Position numbers and translations under genes: made by a program. Of a stretch of DNA of 41,419 nt, positions 3,245 to 39,152 are shown one piece after another. The DNA is taken from positions 1-41,419 of the forward strand of contig JAJPJE010000125.1 in the NCBI GenBank assembly GCA_021324365.1. The letters are read 5' to 3'. The stretch comes from Terriglobia bacterium (lineage in GTDB: Bacteria > Acidobacteriota > Terriglobia > Terriglobales > Acidobacteriaceae). Position 1 is the first letter of the stretch. Each line of letters opens with the position of its first letter. Below the pieces are notes generated by a model that did no database searches, was not told where the DNA came from, and saw only the letters and a list, made by a program, of their open reading frames with translations.

Positions 3245-4513
3245 TTACGTGCTGTGCGGGTGAGCAAGGTAATGCTGCCGTAGCAGGTCCTTGCCGTAGT
3301 CATTTCCGTTCGGTGTTCGCACCACGCAATGGATATGCTGCTGTGTTGGCTTCATCGGGTCGGCGGCAAATTTCCTGAGATTCGCCGGGCGCTGATGATC
3401 GAACTCAATCAGGATGACCGGGTTCTGCACACGGTAATAGAACACGCTTTCGGGCTGCGTGCCGCCTATCCAGGTAAACCAGGTGTTGTCGAGATGCCGA
3501 TCAACTTCGTCCATTTTCACGCGTGTATGACCGTCGTCCATGTTGCTTACATACAGGTGGACGAGATCTCGGAATCGTTGCCGGGCCTGACCGCTCAGAT
3601 CGTTGACCTGCAAGCCGGTGTAATCGATTACCACGTTGTCTTTGAAGGCTTCCGTGAGATTGTTATTGCCGGTTTTGGAGAAGTTCAGGATCGCGCGCTT
3701 GCGCTGTATGTCCGACAAGGAACTCAGCATGGCTAGCCCATCGTTCTGTTCCTGCTGGAGTATTTCCAGACCCTTATACTTACCGGACGGCGCCTTCACC
3801 GGCTCAGATCCGATAAACAGAGGCGTCATTACCACCTGATCGCCGAGCACGAAGTAGTTGATGATCGCGTGATGTCCTTCCAGCTTCCAGCCCCAAGGTT
3901 CAGTTGCAGAAGGACGGCCGTACACCTGCATGTAATACAGCCACTCTCCCAGGAAAACGTGGTCTTCCGACAGTTCGGCCAGCGTTTCGTTGAGTCGCAT
4001 GATGTTGCGAGTCAGCTCGAATCCCTTTGCACTTAGGGAAGCGCGGATTAAACCGAATGCGGCTTGCCGCTGCGCCTCGGTCATATCTGCGAAGCAAACT
4101 CCCTGGCGCGCGTAAAAGTGCTGATTCATCCACTTTCGCCACTCGACGTCATCGACCGGAAACACGGTTCGCGCCAGTTGCACCGGAGTTAGCGAGGCGA
4201 TGAACTTTTCCGCAGCGTTCCGCACAGGTTCGGCCGAGACGCCACTGGGCTTGATCTCGAAAAGCCCAGGTATGACCTCGCCATTTGTTGTGATTCCCTT
4301 GAACGGTGCGGCCAGGCCTTCTTTCTCGTAATCCTCGGACATAATGCGAAACCGCTCCGCCATCTCCGAGGGACTCTGGCGTTCCGTCTGCCCCAGCGCC
4401 CACGGCGCGAGCACTGCGGCTGAGATGAGGCTGGAAAGAAATTCGCGACGCGTTGGAACTCCGGGATTCGCACGCGAATGCGCATGTCCGTGATGATGAA
4501 GATTGTGTTGCAA
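3245..4513 (-). CDS. Tat-exported DUF3500 family protein
   Basis: A 422-residue protein starting at a TTG codon, chosen because a perfect GGAGG ribosome binding site lies 5 nt upstream. The N-terminus is His-rich and then carries a twin-arginine signal, TRREFLSSL followed by a hydrophobic segment and ALG-Q, indicating Tat export of a folded protein. The rest matches the DUF3500 pattern: GWKLEGHH in the middle, an EFDHQ motif and PTQQHIH near the C-terminus. The reaction is not known. Tat export together with many conserved histidines suggests a metal-binding or cofactor-containing protein, which is inference. The frame stays open a further 221 codons upstream, over queG, but that extension has no supporting start signal. 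Confidence 0.85.
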   Translation of the reverse strand: MQHNLHHHGHAHSRANPGVPTRREFLSSLISAAVLAPWALGQTERQSPSEMAERFRIMSEDYEKEGLAAPFKGITTNGEVIPGLFEIKPSGVSAEPVRNAAEKFIASLTPVQLARTVFPVDDVEWRKWMNQHFYARQGVCFADMTEAQRQAAFGLIRASLSAKGFELTRNIMRLNETLAELSEDHVFLGEWLYYMQVYGRPSATEPWGWKLEGHHAIINYFVLGDQVVMTPLFIGSEPVKAPSGKYKGLEILQQEQNDGLAMLSSLSDIQRKRAILNFSKTGNNNLTEAFKDNVVIDYTGLQVNDLSGQARQRFRDLVHLYVSNMDDGHTRVKMDEVDRHLDNTWFTWIGGTQPESVFYYRVQNPVILIEFDHQRPANLRKFAADPMKPTQQHIHCVVRTPNGNDYGKDLLRQHYLAHPHST

Positions 4514-19255: not shown

Positions 19256-20827
19256 TTAAGGCAAGTACTGATAAGCAACGGTGGTCAGAAACTCTTCGAA
19301 GTTTCCCTCAGACATCTGCTGCAGCAGGTCGGCCGCGAGCTGTAGATCTTTCGGGTTCGCTCCGGTGCGCTGTTGCACGTCAGCTACAACTTCTTTCAGC
19401 ATCTGTTCGAATAGCGGCTGAGTAATCGTTCGGCCGTCCTCGAATTTTGCCGCGTGGTGCAGCCACTGCCAGATCTGGGCGCGGCAGATTTCCGAAGTGG
19501 CGGCATCTTCCATCAGCTCGTAGATGGGAACGCAACCCTGCCCGCCAACCCACGATTGCAAATACTGCAGGGCTACATCGATATTGCGGCGCAGCCCGTT
19601 TTCGGTAATTGGTCCGCGTGGAACTCGCAAAAGATCTTCGGCCGTAACACGTGAATGTGCTTCGGCGGGCGGTTTGATCTGATTCGGTGTTTTCATGTAC
19701 TCGTCAAAAACTGCTTTGGCAACTGATACCAAGCCCGGATGCGCTACCCAGGTTCCATCGTGTCCGGCACGGACTTCGCGCAGCTTATCCTGGCGTACTC
19801 GCTCCATCGCGGCTTCATTCGCCTCCGGATTGCCGCGGATAGGGATTTGTGCTGCCATGCCGCCCATCGCGTGAATTCCACGACGATGACAGGTGTGAAT
19901 CAGCAACTCGACATATGACTTTAGGAAGTGCTGTTCCATCGTGATCAGGCCGCGGTCGGGCAGGACATGGTCCGCATGATTGCGGAATTTTTTGATGAAG
20001 CTGAAGATGTAGTCCCATCGTCCACAGTTCAGGCCGGCCGAATGATCGCGAAGCTCATAGAGAATCTCGTTCATCTCGAAAGCGGCTGTGATCGTCTCGA
20101 TCAGCACGGTTGCGCGAATCGTTCCCTTCGGCAAACCAACGTATTCCTGCGCGAATAGGAATACGTCATTCCACAGGCGCGCTTCGCTATGCGCCTCCAT
20201 CTTGGGAAGATAGAAATACGGCCCGGTACCCTTTGCTACCAGCGCGGTAGCATTGTGAAAGAAGAACAGTCCAAAATCGAAGAGCGATGCTGATATCTGG
20301 GCGCCGTCAACTGTAAAGTGCTTCTCGTTCAGGTGCCATCCACGCGGGCGAACGAAGAGCACTGCCGGATTCTCTTTTATGCGATAGAGCTTGCCTTCCG
20401 GAGACGTGAACTGAATATTGCCGGCGACGGCATCGCGCAGGTTTTGCTGGCCTTCCAAGCAGTTCATCCAGGTGGGCGAATTCGCGTCCTCGAAGTCAGA
20501 CATGTAGACGCTGGCGCCGGAGTTAAGCGCGTTAATCAGCATCTTGCGTTCGGGAGGTCCCGTGATCTCGACACGACGGTCTTGGAGATCGGCAGGAATA
20601 GGTGCTACACGCCATGCCCCTTCGCGGATCTCCCGGGTATCATCGAGGAACTTCGGTTGTTCGCCGCGATCGAATTCTTCCTGACGCTTCCGGCGTGCGG
20701 CTAACGACTGCCGGCGCGTGGGCTCGAAACGACGATGAAGTTCCTGAAGGAACTGAACAGCGGCAGGAGTAAGCACCTGCCGCTCAACGTTCACGGTCGC
20801 TGATGCTGGATTTGTGATTGCGTTCAT
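19256..20827 (-). CDS. aceB: Malate synthase A
   Basis: A 523-residue cytoplasmic enzyme that condenses glyoxylate with acetyl-CoA to malate, the second step of the glyoxylate shunt. Typical malate synthase A signatures are visible: SDFEDANSPTW, FVRPRGWHLNEKH with the catalytic Arg, and MGGMAAQIPI. Length is normal for the A form. The ATG at 20827 has GAGGG a few bases upstream and begins a normal family N-terminus; the frame is open further upstream but runs into aceA. It starts 26 bp after aceA and ends at an intrinsic terminator, so the two genes form an operon. Confidence 0.95.
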   Translation of the reverse strand: MNAITNPASATVNVERQVLTPAAVQFLQELHRRFEPTRRQSLAARRKRQEEFDRGEQPKFLDDTREIREGAWRVAPIPADLQDRRVEITGPPERKMLINALNSGASVYMSDFEDANSPTWMNCLEGQQNLRDAVAGNIQFTSPEGKLYRIKENPAVLFVRPRGWHLNEKHFTVDGAQISASLFDFGLFFFHNATALVAKGTGPYFYLPKMEAHSEARLWNDVFLFAQEYVGLPKGTIRATVLIETITAAFEMNEILYELRDHSAGLNCGRWDYIFSFIKKFRNHADHVLPDRGLITMEQHFLKSYVELLIHTCHRRGIHAMGGMAAQIPIRGNPEANEAAMERVRQDKLREVRAGHDGTWVAHPGLVSVAKAVFDEYMKTPNQIKPPAEAHSRVTAEDLLRVPRGPITENGLRRNIDVALQYLQSWVGGQGCVPIYELMEDAATSEICRAQIWQWLHHAAKFEDGRTITQPLFEQMLKEVVADVQQRTGANPKDLQLAADLLQQMSEGNFEEFLTTVAYQYLP

Positions 20828-20853: not shown

Positions 20854-22248
20854 TCAGTCGCGGGCTTCGCTGGCGGGCGATGATATCGCATTTTCGGTCT
20901 TCGCGAGTGCCATGGCGAGTCTCATGAATTCGTCCTGCTGGCCGTGTCCCATGTCGACTTGGCCAATCTGCCCCAGATTGAACTGTTCTGTTTCGGTAGA
21001 CCCCGCCATGGCACAAGTGGAAGTCTCCCCAGCTGCGATAGTTGTTGCGACTTTGTCGAAATACCCTGTACCCACGAAGCGTTGATGTTTCACCCCTCCG
21101 TAACCATGCTCGGTTAGCGCGAATTCGCGTTGTTGCAGGTGTGTGTAGGCGCTCATGCCGGTGCGAGCATAATCACGCGCAAGCTCGTACATCGATAGAT
21201 TCAAAGCATGGAACCCTGCCAGCGTCACAAACTGAAAACGATACCCTATTTTGCCGAGTTCTCCCTGGAATTGAGCGATTTCATCGTCGCTGAGCTTGGC
21301 TTTCCAGTGGAACGACGGAGAACAGTTGTAAGCCAACATCTTGCCTGGGAACTGGGCATGAACGGCATCGGCGAACCGTCGTGCTTCGGCAATATTCGGT
21401 TCCGAGGTTTCGCACCAGAGCAGATCGGCGAAGGGAGCATACGCCAGTGCCCGCGCGATGGCTGCATCCAGGCCACCCCTCATCCGGTAGAAACCTTCGG
21501 CGGTGCGTTCGCCCGTCAGGAACTCACAATCGCGCGAGTCGCAGTCGCTGGTGATCAGTCCGGCGGAATTGGCATCGGTACGAGCGATCAGAATGGTGGG
21601 TACGCCGAGCACGTCGGCGGCCAGCCGCGCAGCAATAAGCTTCTGTACGGCTTCCTGCGTCGGCACGAGCACCTTGCCGCCGAGATGCCCACATTTTTTG
21701 GCGGAGGAAAGCTGATCTTCGAAATGAACCGCCGCCGCCCCGGCCTCGATCATCGCCTTCATGAGTTCGAAAGCATTCAATGCGCCGCCGAAACCGGCTT
21801 CGGCATCCGCGATGATAGGCAGCATCCAATCAATGGAATCGCGCCCTTCGCTGTGGGCGATCTGATCGGCGCGCAGAAGCGCGTTGTTGATCGCGCGCAC
21901 GACGATGGGAACACTGTTCACCGGATAGAGGCTCTGGTCGGGATACATCTGACCGGCCAAATTGGCATCGGCGGCAACCTGCCAGCCGCTGAGGTAGATC
22001 GCTTTTAGTCCGGCTTGGGCCATCTCCACAGCCTGGTTGCCAGTTAGGGCGCCAAGGGCGGCGACATACGATTCTTCATTAAGCAAGTGCCACAACTTTT
22101 CTGCGCCCTTCCGTGCGAGAGTGTATTCGACGCGCACCGTCCCGCTGAGCTTGGCTACGTCCTCAGGCGTGTAGGTCCGCGTGATTCCGCTCCAACGGTT
22201 CGAGTTCCAGTTGTGGTTGTGATTGCCATTTGCCTGCTGCGTCGTCAT
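20854..22248 (-). CDS. aceA: Isocitrate lyase
   Basis: A 464-residue enzyme that splits isocitrate into succinate and glyoxylate, allowing growth on acetate or fatty acids without loss of carbon. The active-site signature KKCGH is at 184-188 with catalytic Cys186. Length fits the bacterial family. The ATG at 22248 was chosen for the GGAG six nt upstream; a TTG six codons earlier overlaps that site and is unlikely. It is the first gene of aceA-aceB, with a candidate promoter and a palindrome upstream, and is divergent from the TPR-HTH gene that may regulate it. Confidence 0.96.
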
Positions 22249-22275
22249 CTTCTTCTCCGTATTCAAGCTGCGGTG

Positions 22276-22304
22276 ATTAGAAGCCAGAATGCAGACCGAA
22301 GCAA
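22276..22304 (-). promoter_or_regulatory. Candidate sigma70-type promoter of aceA
   Basis: On the minus strand, TTGCTT (22304-22299) and TCTAAT (22281-22276) are separated by 17 bp. This would give a leader of about 20 nt before the aceA ribosome binding site and start. The -10 box is good, the -35 box weak, which fits a promoter that needs an activator. Confidence 0.45.
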
Positions 22305-22311
22305 TACCGGA

Positions 22312-22329
22312 TAGTCCGATTCGGACTAG
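22312..22329. promoter_or_regulatory. Palindromic operator-like site 1, next to the aceA promoter
   Basis: TAGTCCGA-T-TCGGACTA is a perfect inverted repeat of 8-bp arms around one central base, followed by G. It is centred about 50 bp upstream of the predicted aceA transcription start, a typical activator position. A related palindrome lies at 22453-22470 beside the divergent gene. Confidence 0.6.
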
Positions 22330-22452
22330 TGAACGCGAAGGTCGTTTCCGACCATCGCCGTAATCGAGACGACAAATTGTGGTGGAATTCCTACACTACT
22401 ACGGCTTTTGCGACATTGCGAGGCGAAAGGACGATAAGAGATTTTGCCGCTA

Positions 22453-22470
22453 TGGACCAATTTGGACTAG
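22453..22470. promoter_or_regulatory. Palindromic operator-like site 2, next to the TPR-HTH regulator gene
   Basis: TGGACCAATTTGGACTAG matches site 1 at 13 of 18 positions, including the entire GGACTAG half. It overlaps a possible -35 box (TTGGAC, 22462-22467; possible -10 TATCGT, 22484-22489) of the gene starting at 22505, so it could mediate autorepression. Confidence 0.5.
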
Positions 22471-22504
22471 CAGCCTAGAATCTTATCGTACGTCTTAATC
22501 GCCG

Positions 22505-24151
22505 ATGTCTCCGAGAGAACTCACCGACCGACTCAGCAAGGCATTGCTCCAGCGTCGCGTGTCGGAGGGCTTTGCTCTTTTGAATCGGAACGAGAAGCTG
22601 TTGCGCGGCATCGGTTCAAATACAGCGGAATCGGCTGCTCTCGTGCTGTCCCTGGCCCTGTGGGTCGATCTCGGTTATCGCGACGTAGCTGTCGTTGACC
22701 AAGCACTTGTGAACTTTCCGCAGGATCTTCGGCGGCGAATGCCGTTTTACGAGTTCCTTCTACTGCGAATGGCTGAAGCGTTCTGTGCAATGGCACGGGA
22801 GGAGTCGGACAAAACAATCGCGTTGCTCGATTTCGTGTTGAAGGCACAGCCAGAGCTAGGAGAAAAGCGGCTGATTGCGATCGCGCACTTCTGGAAGGGA
22901 CGTTCGCATCGCAAGAAGGGCGAATATGACCTGGCGCTGGCCGACATCATCGCTGCTCGCGAGCTGATGGAAGAGATCGGAGCGCCGAAGCTGGCTGCGG
23001 TCATTCGCATCCAGGAGAGCTGGCTTTGGTTTCAGAAAGGTCGATCGGCGGAAGCGCTCCATATTCTGGATCAGGCGGAACAGCAGCTCTCAAACACGGA
23101 TGACTGGCTGTCACTGGGGAACATCGAATCCGCACGCGGACGAATCGTCCGGCAGATCGGTAAATACACGGAGGCCCTCGACCATTTCGATCGTGCGGTG
23201 AAAACTTACACGAGGCGCGATCCCAATCATCGCAACCTTGCTCGTGCCCTCGTGAATGCAGCCTATGTTCGGCGATTACTTGCACTGCACCTGCGAAAGC
23301 GAATCGATGCGCGCGCGCGGCAGGCGAGCCGAAGGGAAGCCAGTATTCGAGTTGCTGGATTTCAGAAGCGCTTCAATGAAATGTGCCAACTCGCATTGCA
23401 GGACTTGAAACGTGCGGGCGAAATCTACGCCTTACATCAGCATTACGGCGGCACCGGTTCGGTTCTGGTAAATACTGGCTATCTGCATCTGGATGAGGGT
23501 GGCATCGATGTTGCCGCAGGCGAGGCTTTACAAGCGTATAGACTGGCTCGCGACAAGAACGATCATATCCTGATGGCGCGTGCGCGCATTCTGCAGGCAG
23601 CCGCAGAAAATGCGCACGTCGACGAGCAGCTTGGCGAAGATGCCGATGCCGCAGTTCACGCCAATACGGCGCGGCAGTATTCCGATGAAGCGATTTCAGT
23701 TGCACGGCAGACGCAAAATCGCTTGTTAATTGCCGAAGCACACCTGGTGCTCGGCGCAACTGCAGCCAACGAATTTTTCCAGGATTGGGAGGAAGCGAAG
23801 CGTTGCGTTGCTGCTGCCTCAGAACTGCTCAGTGCCGACGACCGCGACCATGTATGGGAAGAACTGCTGCTCTTGAAATCGAGAATCCTGCGAGCGTCAG
23901 GCATTGACGAAACGCTGCGCGCCTGGTCGGAAGGAATGGTCGGGGATAAGACCTTTCAGCAGGTGACAGAGGAATTCGCCGAAATCGTAATTCCGAAAGT
24001 CTGGGTAAGGGAAGGAAAGAAAGTGTCGCGTGTTGCCGAACGACTCTCTGTTTCACCGAAAAAAGTACGGCGTATACTACGCAACGCTGGCCTGATCGAT
24101 CGCAGCCAGGGCGGCAAAACGAGTACAACTGCAAGGCGGGACTATGCGTAG
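22505..24151 (+). CDS. TPR protein with a C-terminal helix-turn-helix, probable regulator of aceAB
   Basis: A 548-residue cytoplasmic protein. Residues about 1-480 are almost wholly helical with TPR-like pairs (for example YDLALADIIAARELM and YTEALDHFDRAVKTY). Residues about 503-532 form a helix-turn-helix: VSRVAERLSVSPKKVRRILRNAG, split by the usual short turn. The architecture is that of a transcription factor whose TPR part senses a ligand or partner. It is transcribed divergently from aceA, with related palindromes next to each promoter. The ATG has only a weak ribosome binding site. Regulation of the glyoxylate shunt is inferred from position, not from known homologues; it does not look like IclR or RamB. 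Confidence 0.8.
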   Translation: MSPRELTDRLSKALLQRRVSEGFALLNRNEKLLRGIGSNTAESAALVLSLALWVDLGYRDVAVVDQALVNFPQDLRRRMPFYEFLLLRMAEAFCAMAREESDKTIALLDFVLKAQPELGEKRLIAIAHFWKGRSHRKKGEYDLALADIIAARELMEEIGAPKLAAVIRIQESWLWFQKGRSAEALHILDQAEQQLSNTDDWLSLGNIESARGRIVRQIGKYTEALDHFDRAVKTYTRRDPNHRNLARALVNAAYVRRLLALHLRKRIDARARQASRREASIRVAGFQKRFNEMCQLALQDLKRAGEIYALHQHYGGTGSVLVNTGYLHLDEGGIDVAAGEALQAYRLARDKNDHILMARARILQAAAENAHVDEQLGEDADAAVHANTARQYSDEAISVARQTQNRLLIAEAHLVLGATAANEFFQDWEEAKRCVAAASELLSADDRDHVWEELLLLKSRILRASGIDETLRAWSEGMVGDKTFQQVTEEFAEIVIPKVWVREGKKVSRVAERLSVSPKKVRRILRNAGLIDRSQGGKTSTTARRDYA

Positions 24152-24611
24152 GCTCGAGGAAGTGGAAGAAGCGCGCAATCTGATGCTTGAGGCAAAAGAC
24201 TGGGGCGTGTGGAAGTGGCTCACTGAAAAGAGTCGAATGAGGGCAGCTGCCGATCGGGCGAACGAGGCGTTAGACAAGCTCGATGAGAGGGTGAAGTCCA
24301 CCTGGAGTGATGAACTACGGCGAGCCTATAGCGACTTGGAAGACGCTGACCAAACCACAGGCAGACGACGGCATCCGAAGGGTAGGGAAGCCGCCCTCAA
24401 CATCTCGGCGGAGACGCGAAGCTTGGCCAAAAAGTTGAAGCAAGCCGACGATGAGGCTTGGCAAGCGCACATTCGAGCTGAGCAGACCTTTGCCGACGCC
24501 GAGGCGAAACTCAGTACGAGCATGGCAAAAGAAGGAACGTTACAGGCGATTGAGTCGTGGGATCTGAAAGAAAAGGCAATCAAGAAAAGTGAAGCGGCAG
24601 CTTCACATTGA
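24144..24611 (+). CDS. Small helical protein coupled to the TPR-HTH gene
   Basis: A 155-residue, charged, helix-rich protein with no signal peptide, membrane segment or recognised domain. Its start codon lies inside the last codons of the TPR-HTH gene (8-bp overlap), indicating translational coupling and probably a shared function. Two long coiled-coil-like stretches (about 1-70 and 90-150) flank a short basic segment rich in Arg and Gly (TTGRRRHPKGRE). It could be a partner or modulator of the regulator, which is inference. Confidence 0.7.
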   Translation: MRRLEEVEEARNLMLEAKDWGVWKWLTEKSRMRAAADRANEALDKLDERVKSTWSDELRRAYSDLEDADQTTGRRRHPKGREAALNISAETRSLAKKLKQADDEAWQAHIRAEQTFADAEAKLSTSMAKEGTLQAIESWDLKEKAIKKSEAAASH

Positions 24612-36363: not shown

Positions 36364-37719
36364 TCACGCGGTGGCCTCTTTTTGGTAACAACTTGGTAGC
36401 AACTGTTTGACTACGTCAGCAATTGGCCGCTGAAAGTCGTCCACAGTCGCACGGTCGTATACGTCCATCGCGAGGTTCACCTTGGCGTGACCGAGAATGC
36501 CGGAGATCACCTTGGGGTGAACGCCGTTGCGCCGCAGCGTGGTTGTGAGTGTGTGACGGAAATCGTGCCAGCCGCCAAGCGAGATACCCAACTCCTTCGC
36601 GGCAGGCTGCAGATAGCGGCGAAGCGCATTCCCCGGATTGATGGGCGTGCCAGTTCGTGAACGGAAGACCCACTCACCACTCCCAAGCTTCTTCATCCGC
36701 TCCAGCAACGCAGGATCGACTGGCAGCGAGCGTTCCGAGGTCTTCGATTTCACCGCGTCGACTTCGCCGTCGAAAATCCGGCGCTCGACGCGAAGCACGT
36801 TGCCGTTGAAATCCGACCAGCGGAGCGCAACCGCCTCACCGATCCGCAAACCCGACGCCGCAAGAAACAGCACCAGCGTTGCGTATGGTTCTTCCAGTTT
36901 CTCCGCAATCGCCTTCACCTGCTTAGGCGTCATCACCGTACGGACCACCTTCCGTCCGCCAGTGCGCTTGGGCAGCTTAATGCGAGTGCAGGGATTCTTC
37001 GGAAGCCAACCGCAATCGGTCGCCCATCCGAGCGTGAGCGCCAACACCACCCTCATGCTGCGGAGTGAGCTTTCACTGTACTTGCGGGCCTGCTCCGTAA
37101 GGAAATTCTGGATCTCCTCGCGGTTGATGGCCGCGATCTTCCGCTTGCCGAACGTCGCAAGAACGTAAGCACGCAACGTGTGCTGGTAGTGGCTGAGAGT
37201 GGAATTCTTCATCGTCGCGCCCTCCGCCTTTTCCCAGCGCTCGGTTAACTCCTGAAAGCTCATGTCCGCTGTCGTCGATGAGACTCGCAGGTGTTCCAAC
37301 AAGCAGTTTCGTGCCGCGTTCTTCGTAGGCAGTTCAGCCAGAGTGCCGAGGCGCACCTTACGCAGGTGCCTCTCGATCTGGCCGTCCGGCTTGCGGATAT
37401 CTTCGCGGAACATTCCGTACCACACCTTTGCTCGTGTTCCTCGTTGAAACACGTGTCCTCGTTGATACCGAAAAAGCATAGTGGTCCTTTCCGGTTTCAA
37501 CGATTTCCCGCTTTCGATTCTCGCGCGCAGTTGCTCGGAAAGCAACTCCGCATCGAAGCGGATTATTCGACCAACGCGAACGGCGGGAAGCTCATTGATG
37601 TGCCGCCTCACCCAAGAGCCGGATACGCCCAGCAGATCAGCAACATCCGCAACGCTTAACAGAGCACGTGAATTGTCTGCGGATTGCAAGATCAGTACGC
37701 GGCGGTGGGATTTCTTCAC
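36364..37719 (-). CDS. Tyrosine recombinase (integrase) with an N-terminal helix-turn-helix
   Basis: A 451-residue site-specific recombinase that inserts and excises the island. Residues about 19-65 form an excisionase-like helix-turn-helix (LSVADVADLLGVSGSWVRRHI). An arm-binding region (about 85-145) and a core-binding domain (about 153-245) follow. The catalytic set is complete: Arg292, Lys324, His385, Arg388, His411 and nucleophile Tyr421, so it should be active. The start is GTG with AGGGG upstream. The gene reads toward the tRNA, a common layout for tRNA-integrated elements. The N-terminal addition is not part of the usual integrase. Confidence 0.95.
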   Translation of the reverse strand: MKKSHRRVLILQSADNSRALLSVADVADLLGVSGSWVRRHINELPAVRVGRIIRFDAELLSEQLRARIESGKSLKPERTTMLFRYQRGHVFQRGTRAKVWYGMFREDIRKPDGQIERHLRKVRLGTLAELPTKNAARNCLLEHLRVSSTTADMSFQELTERWEKAEGATMKNSTLSHYQHTLRAYVLATFGKRKIAAINREEIQNFLTEQARKYSESSLRSMRVVLALTLGWATDCGWLPKNPCTRIKLPKRTGGRKVVRTVMTPKQVKAIAEKLEEPYATLVLFLAASGLRIGEAVALRWSDFNGNVLRVERRIFDGEVDAVKSKTSERSLPVDPALLERMKKLGSGEWVFRSRTGTPINPGNALRRYLQPAAKELGISLGGWHDFRHTLTTTLRRNGVHPKVISGILGHAKVNLAMDVYDRATVDDFQRPIADVVKQLLPSCYQKEATA

Positions 37720-37898: not shown

Positions 37899-39011
37899 TC
37901 ATTCCTGCTGCTGCAGGAATTGTCGAAAGAGCGGGTGATAGAGCTTGTATCGCCCGCGACCTGAGCGAATGAGGAGTCCTCGCTCAGTTAATCGCCTGAA
38001 GTATTCGTATTGGAATTGTTTTACGAACGGATTCGGGCTGACTTCGTGTTCGTCCGCGTGAGCAAGTGCTCGAAGGAGAGCGACATCTTTGTCGGAAAGG
38101 TGGGCCAAGTCCGAGTTGAATTTTTCTCGCTCCAAGTGGGCCGCGATTTCGTGCCACACATCAGATGGAGCGCGATCGGGGAGGGCGAGCAATTCGCGGC
38201 TGATGAACGCGAGGAAATAGGGGTGGCCGATTGTCTTCTCGTACAGCCACTCCGCAATAGTGCTGACGACTCCGTTCTCCCCAAATACCGCCTTTGCGTA
38301 TTCCAGTGTTTCGGCAGGAGTGAATGGCGCGAGCACGAGCTTGCTGTAGAAACGCACGGCAGGTTCGGCGAAGCTGTGAATTCCTGAGAAGTAATGGCTC
38401 TTTGCGGAAAAACACACGCTAAAGTTCATCCCCTCGACTGCCAAGGCTTGAAATTGATCGCGAATCGTTAAGGCGGTGTCGCCCGATGCGACGGAGAGGT
38501 TCTGAAGATCGTCCAGGAAGAACACTGCGCCTGCCAGTCGTGCGGGCCGAATGAACCGATGCCATGCTTCTGTCAGCGTGTGCCTCAGGAGCGCGCTGCC
38601 TGACGTCAGAAATCGACGTTGTGCGTCGCGCTCGACTGTGATCGGGCCTGCCTTAACTTGCTTGAACTTCCAGTTACGCGCTTCGGTACGGAGTCGCGCC
38701 GTCACTGAATCAGAAGCTGCAAGCGCGTCCGCGAGCTTGTCACAGAGGGACTCTGCAAATCTGAGGTAATCGCCGATGTCCTGAGAAACGGCAAGATGGA
38801 CGGGTAGTATTTGCGGTGCGACTTGAAAGCAGCAGTCGGCGAGCCTGAAAAGAAGGCTGCTCTTGCCAATGCCCCAATTGCCGAGAACGGCAAACGACGG
38901 AGTTCGCGTCGTGATGAGCCCTTGCCGTAGTGCTGTTTCGAAAGACTGGATTTCGCGTGTGCGTCCGATGAAATTCGCGGGTCTGGCTGGAAAACTTGGC
39001 TCTGGCAGCAT
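37899..39011 (-). CDS. AAA-type P-loop ATPase with a C-terminal winged-helix-like region
   Basis: A 370-residue ATPase of the Orc1/Cdc6-like or STAND-like type. Residues 1-20 contain FIGRTREI, the box that often opens such ATPase domains. Walker A is GNWGIGKSS (44-52) and Walker B is VFFLDDLQ (163-170). The region after about 275 is helical and ends in a winged-helix-like segment (LTERGLLIRSGRGRYKLYHPLF). ATG 39011 was chosen for GAGGA just upstream; a TTG at 39086 keeps the frame open but would place a 28-bp palindrome inside the coding region. Possible roles are element replication, regulation or defence; none is established. Confidence 0.8.
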   Translation of the reverse strand: MLPEPSFPARPANFIGRTREIQSFETALRQGLITTRTPSFAVLGNWGIGKSSLLFRLADCCFQVAPQILPVHLAVSQDIGDYLRFAESLCDKLADALAASDSVTARLRTEARNWKFKQVKAGPITVERDAQRRFLTSGSALLRHTLTEAWHRFIRPARLAGAVFFLDDLQNLSVASGDTALTIRDQFQALAVEGMNFSVCFSAKSHYFSGIHSFAEPAVRFYSKLVLAPFTPAETLEYAKAVFGENGVVSTIAEWLYEKTIGHPYFLAFISRELLALPDRAPSDVWHEIAAHLEREKFNSDLAHLSDKDVALLRALAHADEHEVSPNPFVKQFQYEYFRRLTERGLLIRSGRGRYKLYHPLFRQFLQQQE

Positions 39012-39026
39012 GACTTCCTCAAGAAA

Positions 39027-39054
39027 CTCAAGGTCCTCAATTGAGGACCTTGAG
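39027..39054. promoter_or_regulatory. Perfect 28-bp palindrome upstream of the AAA ATPase
   Basis: Two 14-bp arms, CTCAAGGTCCTCAA and TTGAGGACCTTGAG, meet with no spacer, 16 bp before the predicted start codon. A palindrome this long is unlikely by chance. It could be an operator for a dimeric protein, a replication or recombination site, or a cruciform. Confidence 0.65.
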
Positions 39055-39152
39055 GATGTTGATTTCTTGGTAGGCGCGAAGGGCAATTTTCACGATTGGC
39101 ACATCGTGTGGTTGTGGATTGTGTTTGAGACTGTGGTTGTGGCGGCTGCCCT

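Follow-up and report, generated by a model that had tools for sequence, protein, structure and literature searches.

A predicted tetratricopeptide-repeat regulator with a C-terminal helix-turn-helix and a conserved operator next to the glyoxylate-shunt genes of Terriglobia

In other bacteria, the isocitrate lyase gene aceA of the glyoxylate shunt, a pathway that enables growth on acetate, is controlled by central-carbon regulators such as IclR, RccR and GlxR, which belong to protein families distinct from that of the candidate regulator considered here. IclR of Escherichia coli is a repressor that is relieved by a metabolite, and members of its family carry an N-terminal winged helix-turn-helix (HTH) together with an IclR effector domain. 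The ScfR/RamB family, in turn, has an HTH of Xre type at the N-terminus and ScfR domains at the C-terminus. Acidobacteria abound in soils, and their control of central carbon metabolism seems to be little known. We analyzed a stretch of 41,419 nucleotides from a Terriglobia bacterium (GenBank assembly GCA_021324365.1, contig JAJPJE010000125.1, positions 1 to 41,419; hereafter the window), which comes from a genome of 4.44 Mb in 125 contigs. In this window, the gene of a predicted transcription factor, built of tetratricopeptide repeats (TPR) and a C-terminal HTH, is divergent from aceA and the malate synthase gene aceB, and a conserved 17-base-pair (bp) palindrome between them is the proposed operator.

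RamB of Paracoccus can be taken, by analogy, as the nearest functional parallel. RamB (ScfR family; Paracoccus and corynebacteria) is a local glyoxylate-cycle regulator that binds upstream of the operon, in Paracoccus binds CoA-ester intermediates of another pathway, and has a motif of two boxes with an 18-bp spacer (PMC10370305). Unlike this two-box motif, the window operator is a single palindrome. RccR is named among the regulators of central carbon metabolism (PMC5489143), and Acidobacterium capsulatum is reported to be without aceA, aceB and glcB (PMC11636273). Our literature search of open-licence papers returned no description of such a TPR-HTH regulator and no regulator of the acidobacterial glyoxylate shunt.

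The gene arrangement claimed in a preliminary description of this DNA, a regulator gene transcribed away from aceA-aceB across a 256-bp gap, is borne out by the open reading frame (ORF) coordinates and by family matches. The reverse strand carries aceA (20854-22248; isocitrate lyase, NCBIfam PRK15063, 745.9 bits versus a cut-off of 562) and aceB (19256-20827; malate synthase A, NCBIfam malate_syn_A, 794.9 versus 594.5). The aceA ATG is at 22248 and GGAGAAG, directly upstream, resembles by eye a ribosome-binding site. The gap extends over 22249-22504 and is followed on the forward strand by the ORF of the predicted 548-residue transcription factor (22505-24151), which is present in a single copy in this genome.

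This protein is a TPR superhelix with a C-terminal HTH. Its repeats are matched by Pfam TPR_12 (2.3e-12), and the AlphaFold2 model shows a helical-repeat superhelix at residues 1-465, followed by helices at 484-502, 507-514 and 518-527 that are predicted to form an HTH after a long helix. The mean predicted local distance difference test score (pLDDT) of the whole model is 85.3, with block values of 48 for residues 481-490, 66-76 for 491-530 and below 50 for 471-487 and 535-548, and the C-terminal part modelled alone reaches a mean of 82.4. As the structure matches of the whole model were all taken up by TPR proteins, the HTH was modelled and searched alone. Its best structural match is Fis (Z 6.0 over 52 residues, root-mean-square deviation (rmsd) 2.8), and the DNA-binding domains of NtrC4 and NtrC1 and the effector domain of PrrA are also among the matches. 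A long helix is predicted ahead of the HTH, and in fold the modelled domain weakly resembles those of Fis/NtrC type; operators of NtrC are about 17 bp long. A Foldseek search of the HTH domain gave no match at E 0.001 (best E 0.085). A Fis/HTH_8 label finds no support in sequence: when the isolated domain of seven members was searched with a limit of E 1, HTH_8 was absent from the 24 Pfam families matched, with filters removing most matches above E about 0.1. Assignment to the NsdA-family TPR-like regulatory proteins (NCBIfam NF053720) was rejected, the TPR similarity to them amounting to 19.5 bits, far below the cut-off of 75.

MalT is an activator, and MalT-like activators consist of a STAND ATPase, TPR and a LuxR HTH. 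The plan of a TPR sensor followed by a C-terminal HTH is shared by the window protein and MalT of E. coli (domain III, 1hz4; Z 24.0, 348 residues, rmsd 4.2). Unlike MalT, the window protein has no N-terminal nucleotide-binding domain, its helical repeats beginning at the start and no NTPase family being matched, and its HTH gives no LuxR-type family match. The RRNPP regulators NprR (5dbk; Z 27.3, 334 residues, rmsd 4.0) and Rap (4gyo; Z 26.9, 347 residues, rmsd 4.3) are likewise TPR-containing bacterial regulators, although eukaryotic TPR proteins reach equally high Z, such values being frequent among repeat proteins. The DNA-binding domain of NprR is N-terminal, the RRNPP plan being an N-terminal HTH followed by TPR, whereas the window protein has its TPR first and its HTH last. 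In Pfam and NCBIfam, the window protein has no match to ScfR-type domains, to the IclR family, or to RccR or GlxR. A regulator type outside IclR, RamB and GlxR, as had been suggested, thus agrees with these searches, and the features tested place the predicted regulator outside the IclR, ScfR/RamB and RRNPP families.

The gap contains two palindromes, which had been described as related 18-bp elements, the first of them perfect. The first, operator 1 (TAGTCCGA-T-TCGGACTA; proposed aceA activator site), is indeed perfect, with arms of 8 bp around one central base, and spans 17 bp at 22312-22328, one base less than the 22312-22329 claimed. The second, operator 2 (TGGACCAATTTGGACTA; 22453-22469; proposed autoregulatory site), is related to it with the 13 identities claimed, over 17 rather than 18 positions; it is imperfect (6 of 8 arm pairs) and its score by itself is weak (7.2). 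Shuffling the gap 5000 times produced perfect palindromes with 8-bp arms and a spacer of 0-3 on 63 occasions; operator 1 alone is therefore only moderately unlikely, and both palindromes gain weight because relatives carry them too. At no more than one mismatch, TAGTCCNANTNGGACTA is found at one place in the 4.44-Mb genome, operator 1, and the reversed control pattern also at one. The other two matches of a wider pattern with one mismatch both lie inside ORFs, and with up to two mismatches this pattern gives 39 matches versus 63 for the reversed control; further targets in the window genome are therefore not claimed.

To find relatives, the regulator was searched as a single sequence, which matched 8 of 61 genomes at E 1e-3 (six strongly, its own included, and two through weak repeat matches), and as a 12-sequence alignment, which revealed orthologues in 48 of 399 Terriglobia genomes at E 1e-30, one in each. 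A phylum-wide sample gave matches in 5 of 396 genomes, four from the window's own family and one weak (45.5 bits), so the regulator family seems confined to Terriglobia within our sampling. The loci considered below number 54: the window, 47 genome loci (46 of the 47 other profile matches, G380 being a contig-end fragment, plus G024 from the single-sequence search) and six of eight record loci, from which L014 (the same locus as G033) and L018 (partial, oddly overlapping matches) were left out.

Conservation of the palindrome in relatives, proposed earlier as a check, was found: the same operator, with the 17-bp consensus TCGTCCGAWTCGGACGA, precedes aceA or the regulator across related genomes. 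In the first 13 loci (12 distinct, as L002 equals L014), the operator word lies within 420 bp upstream of the regulator in 10; L003, L004 and L006 have none in that range, and L004 (G028) has one beyond aceB. A weight matrix was built from 24 sites, which by construction score 18.4-29.5, and 193,182 background positions were scanned; the background maximum was 12.7 and scores of 12 or more occurred at a rate of 5.2e-6 per position. To avoid circularity, the 17-member clade of the window was scored with a matrix based on 11 sites from other regulators. The window operator then scored 27.2 and values of about 18 or more were reached in 14 of the 17 loci, in L085 at the second-site position; the remaining three are L078 and L081 (11.6) and L118 (5.5). 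A score of at least 12 is reached in 10 of the 29 testable loci outside the training set. Columns of the site carry 1.70 bits on average, those of the flanks 0.36 and 0.46 (from 16 loci; anchoring on the best match biases this upwards).

An operator of 12 or more lies within 500 bp of aceA in 14 of 20 regulator-bearing loci versus none of 24 regulator-free loci (best score 4.6), with a Fisher p of 3.4e-7 that ignores kinship and uses a matrix partly trained on the positive loci. The regulator-free loci are those recovered out of 76 such genomes, and the regulator-bearing ones come from 20 of 21 genomes, all except G233. Six regulator-bearing aceA loci fall below 12: G264 (5.2), G426 (a variant, 1.7), G365 (9.8), G403 (none), and those of G070 and G357. 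In G070 and G357, aceA follows a second malate synthase gene and the site is in front of that gene. Some sites lie away from the regulator: at aceB elsewhere in G407 (TAGTCCAAATCGGACCA, 20.4), at aceA elsewhere in G365 (TGGTCCATTCCGGACTA, weak), and, in G233, between aceB and aceA on a different contig, where the match is exact. Conversely, L103, L112 and L119 have a site at the regulator promoter in genomes without aceA. The site thus tracks the regulator and not aceA.

Across whole genomes, only sites at regulator, aceA or aceB loci stand out: 12 of 13 exact matches, found in 12 genomes, are at such loci. Of 61 relatives, 19 have a match, and it is exact in three regulator-free genomes (G013, where it lies inside an ORF, G018 and G031). 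A site common to G177, G220, G333 and G382 (TGGTCCGTTTCGGACGA) was rejected, being inside an ORF in all four. Having a conserved operator at the putative target as well as at its own promoter, the predicted factor would belong to the pathway-specific autoregulated transcription factors.

Within the HTH, SPKKVRR (residues 517-523; codons at 24053-24073, forward strand), the predicted start of the recognition helix, is present in 53 of the 54 loci. The exception, G426 (L118), has SPQKVRR; at the corresponding position its operator reads TGGTACGAACCGTGCTA, in which A replaces C as the fifth base of each half-site, so that this locus is possibly a natural specificity variant.

The spacing between operator and promoter bears on the direction of control. 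The proposed aceA promoter (22276-22304, reverse strand) consists of TTGCTT (22299-22304) and TCTAAT (22276-22281) separated by 17 bp and was not listed by a consensus scan with a threshold of 9 of 12. In that scan, the only promoter-like pair within 22230-22530 was TGGACC/TAGAAT, also 17 bp apart, the proposed regulator promoter (22453-22481, forward strand). Promoter geometry was compared in 17 loci. In each of them the site is followed 6-7 bp further on, toward aceA (toward aceB in one locus), by a -35-like hexamer, and in 15 the spacer between the -35 and -10 hexamers is 17-18 bp; the site centre falls at -50 to -52 of the start so predicted. As the geometry search chooses the best combination from gaps of 3-11 and spacers of 15-19, it should be compared with random positions in the same loci, where a gap of 6-7 occurs in 20%; a TTG 6-7 bp past the site is found in 16 of 17 loci versus 2.9% of random positions. 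The -35-like hexamers are mostly weak (TTGCNN), and a weak -35 is usual at activated promoters. With its centre near -51 and a constant gap of 6-7 bp, operator 1 would occupy an activator position next to the -35, in keeping with the preliminary description. On the other side, many relatives have, by eye, TGGACG or TGGACA and CATAAT about 18 bp apart right after the site, and because that promoter follows at once, both promoters could there be served by a single site.

Besides the main site, 12 of the 17 loci of the window's clade have a weaker match, located 33-63 bp ahead of the aligned regulator start (score of 5 or more, expected 0.0034 times per locus); none was found in L013, L081, L083, L084 and L118. 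Its distance to the first site varies from 121 to 156 bp among the 12, and in some relatives it is possibly inside the coding region, as start codons there are uncertain. In the window, operator 2 overlaps, as had been noted, the -35-like hexamer of the regulator promoter (22453-22458) and starts on it, which fits autorepression, and its recurrence in the clade supports the suggested autoregulatory site.

The regulator's neighbours at the 54 loci were assigned by tblastn. aceA is divergent in 16 (in L016 as a remnant only), aceB is divergent in one and directly upstream in the same direction in 10, and a second malate synthase type is divergent in three, such that aceA, aceB or another malate synthase gene adjoins the regulator in 30. 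The linkage that had been proposed as a check thus recurs in other genomes. An isocitrate-lyase-like gene with a pyruvate phosphate dikinase gene is divergent in three loci and an adenylate kinase gene in six, while no such neighbour is found in 15, among them L090, which ends at the regulator, and L120, with only 321 bp upstream. The second malate synthase, lyase-like protein, dikinase, adenylate kinase and phosphoenolpyruvate (PEP) carboxykinase were confirmed with Pfam for one example each. On a tree of 53 regulators the arrangements are clustered, yet 13 changes are needed. Isocitrate lyase is present in 97 of the 399 Terriglobia genomes at E 1e-120, of which only 21 are among the 48 regulator genomes, so most aceA genes in Terriglobia are without the regulator.

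Several of these neighbourhoods have features of their own. In L016, aceA is a 78-residue remnant (3462-3695), and in the sister lineage L074 (G033) it was not found, an apparent erosion of the shunt in which aceB, regulator and operator persist. The isocitrate-lyase-like protein beside pyruvate phosphate dikinase in L078, L081 and L085 (264-271 residues in the two measured) lacks the KKCGH motif of the window AceA and may be a pseudoenzyme. Eight loci of the f6 family have an adenylate kinase gene facing away from the regulator or from the unit that it forms with aceB (L101, L104, L111, L113, L114 and L119, and beyond aceB in L087 and L092). In 11 of 14 regulator-free aceA loci (L060-L069 and L073), another malate synthase gene, 31-34% identical to aceB, adjoins aceA, which is a second glyoxylate-shunt layout in Terriglobia. 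In L018, the matches for isocitrate lyase and for the regulator lie on opposite strands and share about 100 bp, which may reflect an assembly chimera.

Two further regions of the window should be mentioned. A small ORF of 155 residues (24144-24611, forward strand), whose ATG overlaps the end of the regulator gene, had been suggested to encode a cofactor of the regulator. It has no Pfam or NCBIfam family above cut-off and no tblastn match (E up to 0.01) at the other 53 regulator loci, 52 of which extend 600 bp or more past the regulator (188 bp in L016), a search confined to these loci rather than genome-wide; the suggestion was dropped and the ORF excluded from the system as a conserved partner. 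Near the right end, an ORF resembling by eye a tyrosine-recombinase-like integrase (36364-37719) and an ATPase-like ORF (37899-39086) suggest a possible mobile element.

The computations show the protein's architecture, an operator that is conserved and accompanies the regulator, and a constant spacing. On this basis we propose that the product of the gene at 22505 would be a one-component transcription factor whose TPR superhelix senses a signal, probably one tied to acetate or gluconeogenic growth, and whose Fis/NtrC-like C-terminal HTH would bind the 17-bp palindrome as a dimer. At operator 1, immediately before the aceA -35, it would activate aceA-aceB, whereas at operator 2, which covers its own promoter, it would limit its own synthesis. 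Both directions of control, activation of aceAB and repression of its own gene, we infer from the geometry. That the regulator acts on aceA-aceB through the operator, in either direction, is very probable from the comparative sequence evidence; that it does so as an activator is the best full explanation and is likely, and an autorepressive role of operator 2 is favoured with moderate confidence.

Some of the data weigh against this explanation and should be considered when referring to it. The match of the HTH to Fis is weak, and no Pfam family is found for the HTH above cut-off. A score of 12 is not reached in 19 of the 29 untrained testable loci (G034, G296, G051, G363, G303, G365, G407, G264, G233, G315, G309, G339, G382, G333, G409, G325, G244, G416 and G426), and L115-L117 and five loci of the largest regulator clade are among the untrained loci below 12. 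G051 has aceB beside the regulator yet no site, and in G403 an unlinked aceA has none. At no more than one mismatch, TNGTCCGANTCGGACNA has matches in 35 of the 48 regulator genomes, at 68 places versus 57 for the reversed control, and as this is barely an excess, such matches are mostly background. Isocitrate lyase is absent from 27 of the 48 regulator genomes at E 1e-40, and the regulator must therefore have another role there. Finally, G426 offers a single case of co-variation between helix and operator, and this on a long branch, so that it is suggestive only.

Other explanations differ in how they fare with these observations. The protein might act at the same operator as a repressor, both of aceA and of its own gene, with a metabolite lifting the repression as for IclR of E. 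coli. Repressors, too, commonly have a divergent, autoregulated gene and an operator near two promoters, and operator 2 covers the regulator's own -35-like hexamer. Operator 1, however, ends 6-7 bp upstream of the -35-like hexamer, with no overlap in any of the 17 loci, and these hexamers are mostly weak, as at activated promoters; we consider repression of aceA unlikely. The palindrome could also be the site of another, unlinked regulator, with the TPR-HTH gene as a mere conserved neighbour, given that binding by the TPR-HTH protein is a prediction and that most untrained regulator loci have no strong site. Such a site would be hard to reconcile with its absence from all 24 regulator-free aceA loci, its persistence at regulator promoters in genomes without aceA, and the joint change of helix and site in G426, which makes this explanation improbable. 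As for a functionless palindrome, arisen by chance or kept in a spacer shared by ancestry, shuffled gaps do yield perfect 8-bp arms at times and related genomes have common sequence by descent. Nonetheless, the flanks have decayed while the site was kept, and the site persists in differing gene arrangements with strong-site regulators down to 41% identity to the window's, so that the probability left for this explanation is negligible.

A further alternative concerns the extent of the regulon rather than the operator. aceA-aceB might be one target among several in a main regulon for gluconeogenesis and C2 assimilation; the others would be pyruvate phosphate dikinase, adenylate kinase, which recycles the AMP from acetyl-CoA synthetase and dikinase-type reactions, and in places PEP carboxykinase. 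The divergent lyase-like and dikinase genes in three loci, adenylate kinase divergent in six and beyond aceB in two more, and PEP carboxykinase downstream of the regulator in two loci all point this way, as does a site in G362 (L168, position 4040; ATGTCCGATTCGGACGA) 49 bp before a GTP-dependent PEP carboxykinase gene. On the other hand, two of the three dikinase loci have weak sites (8.9 in G034 and G296), the additional wider-pattern matches of the window genome lie inside ORFs, and G362 is the only one of 30 PEP carboxykinase promoters scanned (32 of 48 genomes matched, two without a locus) to have a site. PEP carboxykinase was accordingly rejected as a general target, and the broader regulon is a tentative alternative of rather low probability.

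If our preferred explanation, activation of aceA-aceB through the operator, is true, the operator, the regulator and the geometry of the promoter would together describe how Acidobacteria switch to growth on acetate or fatty acids, and this switch would lie outside the IclR, RamB/ScfR, RccR and GlxR types. It would also be an instance of metabolic sensing by a TPR domain that is joined to a C-terminal HTH but lacks an ATPase. In the TPR part, many arginines are invariant among 12 aligned orthologues (R76, R88, R133, R136, R213, R216, R247, R257, R359 and R361), for which reason an anionic ligand is proposed. A rewired regulon is suggested by the dikinase and adenylate kinase genes that lie beside some of the regulators. 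A wider and more doubtful proposal is that the protein represents a new activator family, restricted to Terriglobia as sampled, in which an ATPase-free TPR domain would sense an anionic C2 or gluconeogenic intermediate, such as acyl-CoA, PEP, glyoxylate or AMP, and drive a Fis-like HTH onto its operator, and in which the regulon may have been rewired from aceA-aceB to dikinase and adenylate kinase with the operator remaining much the same.

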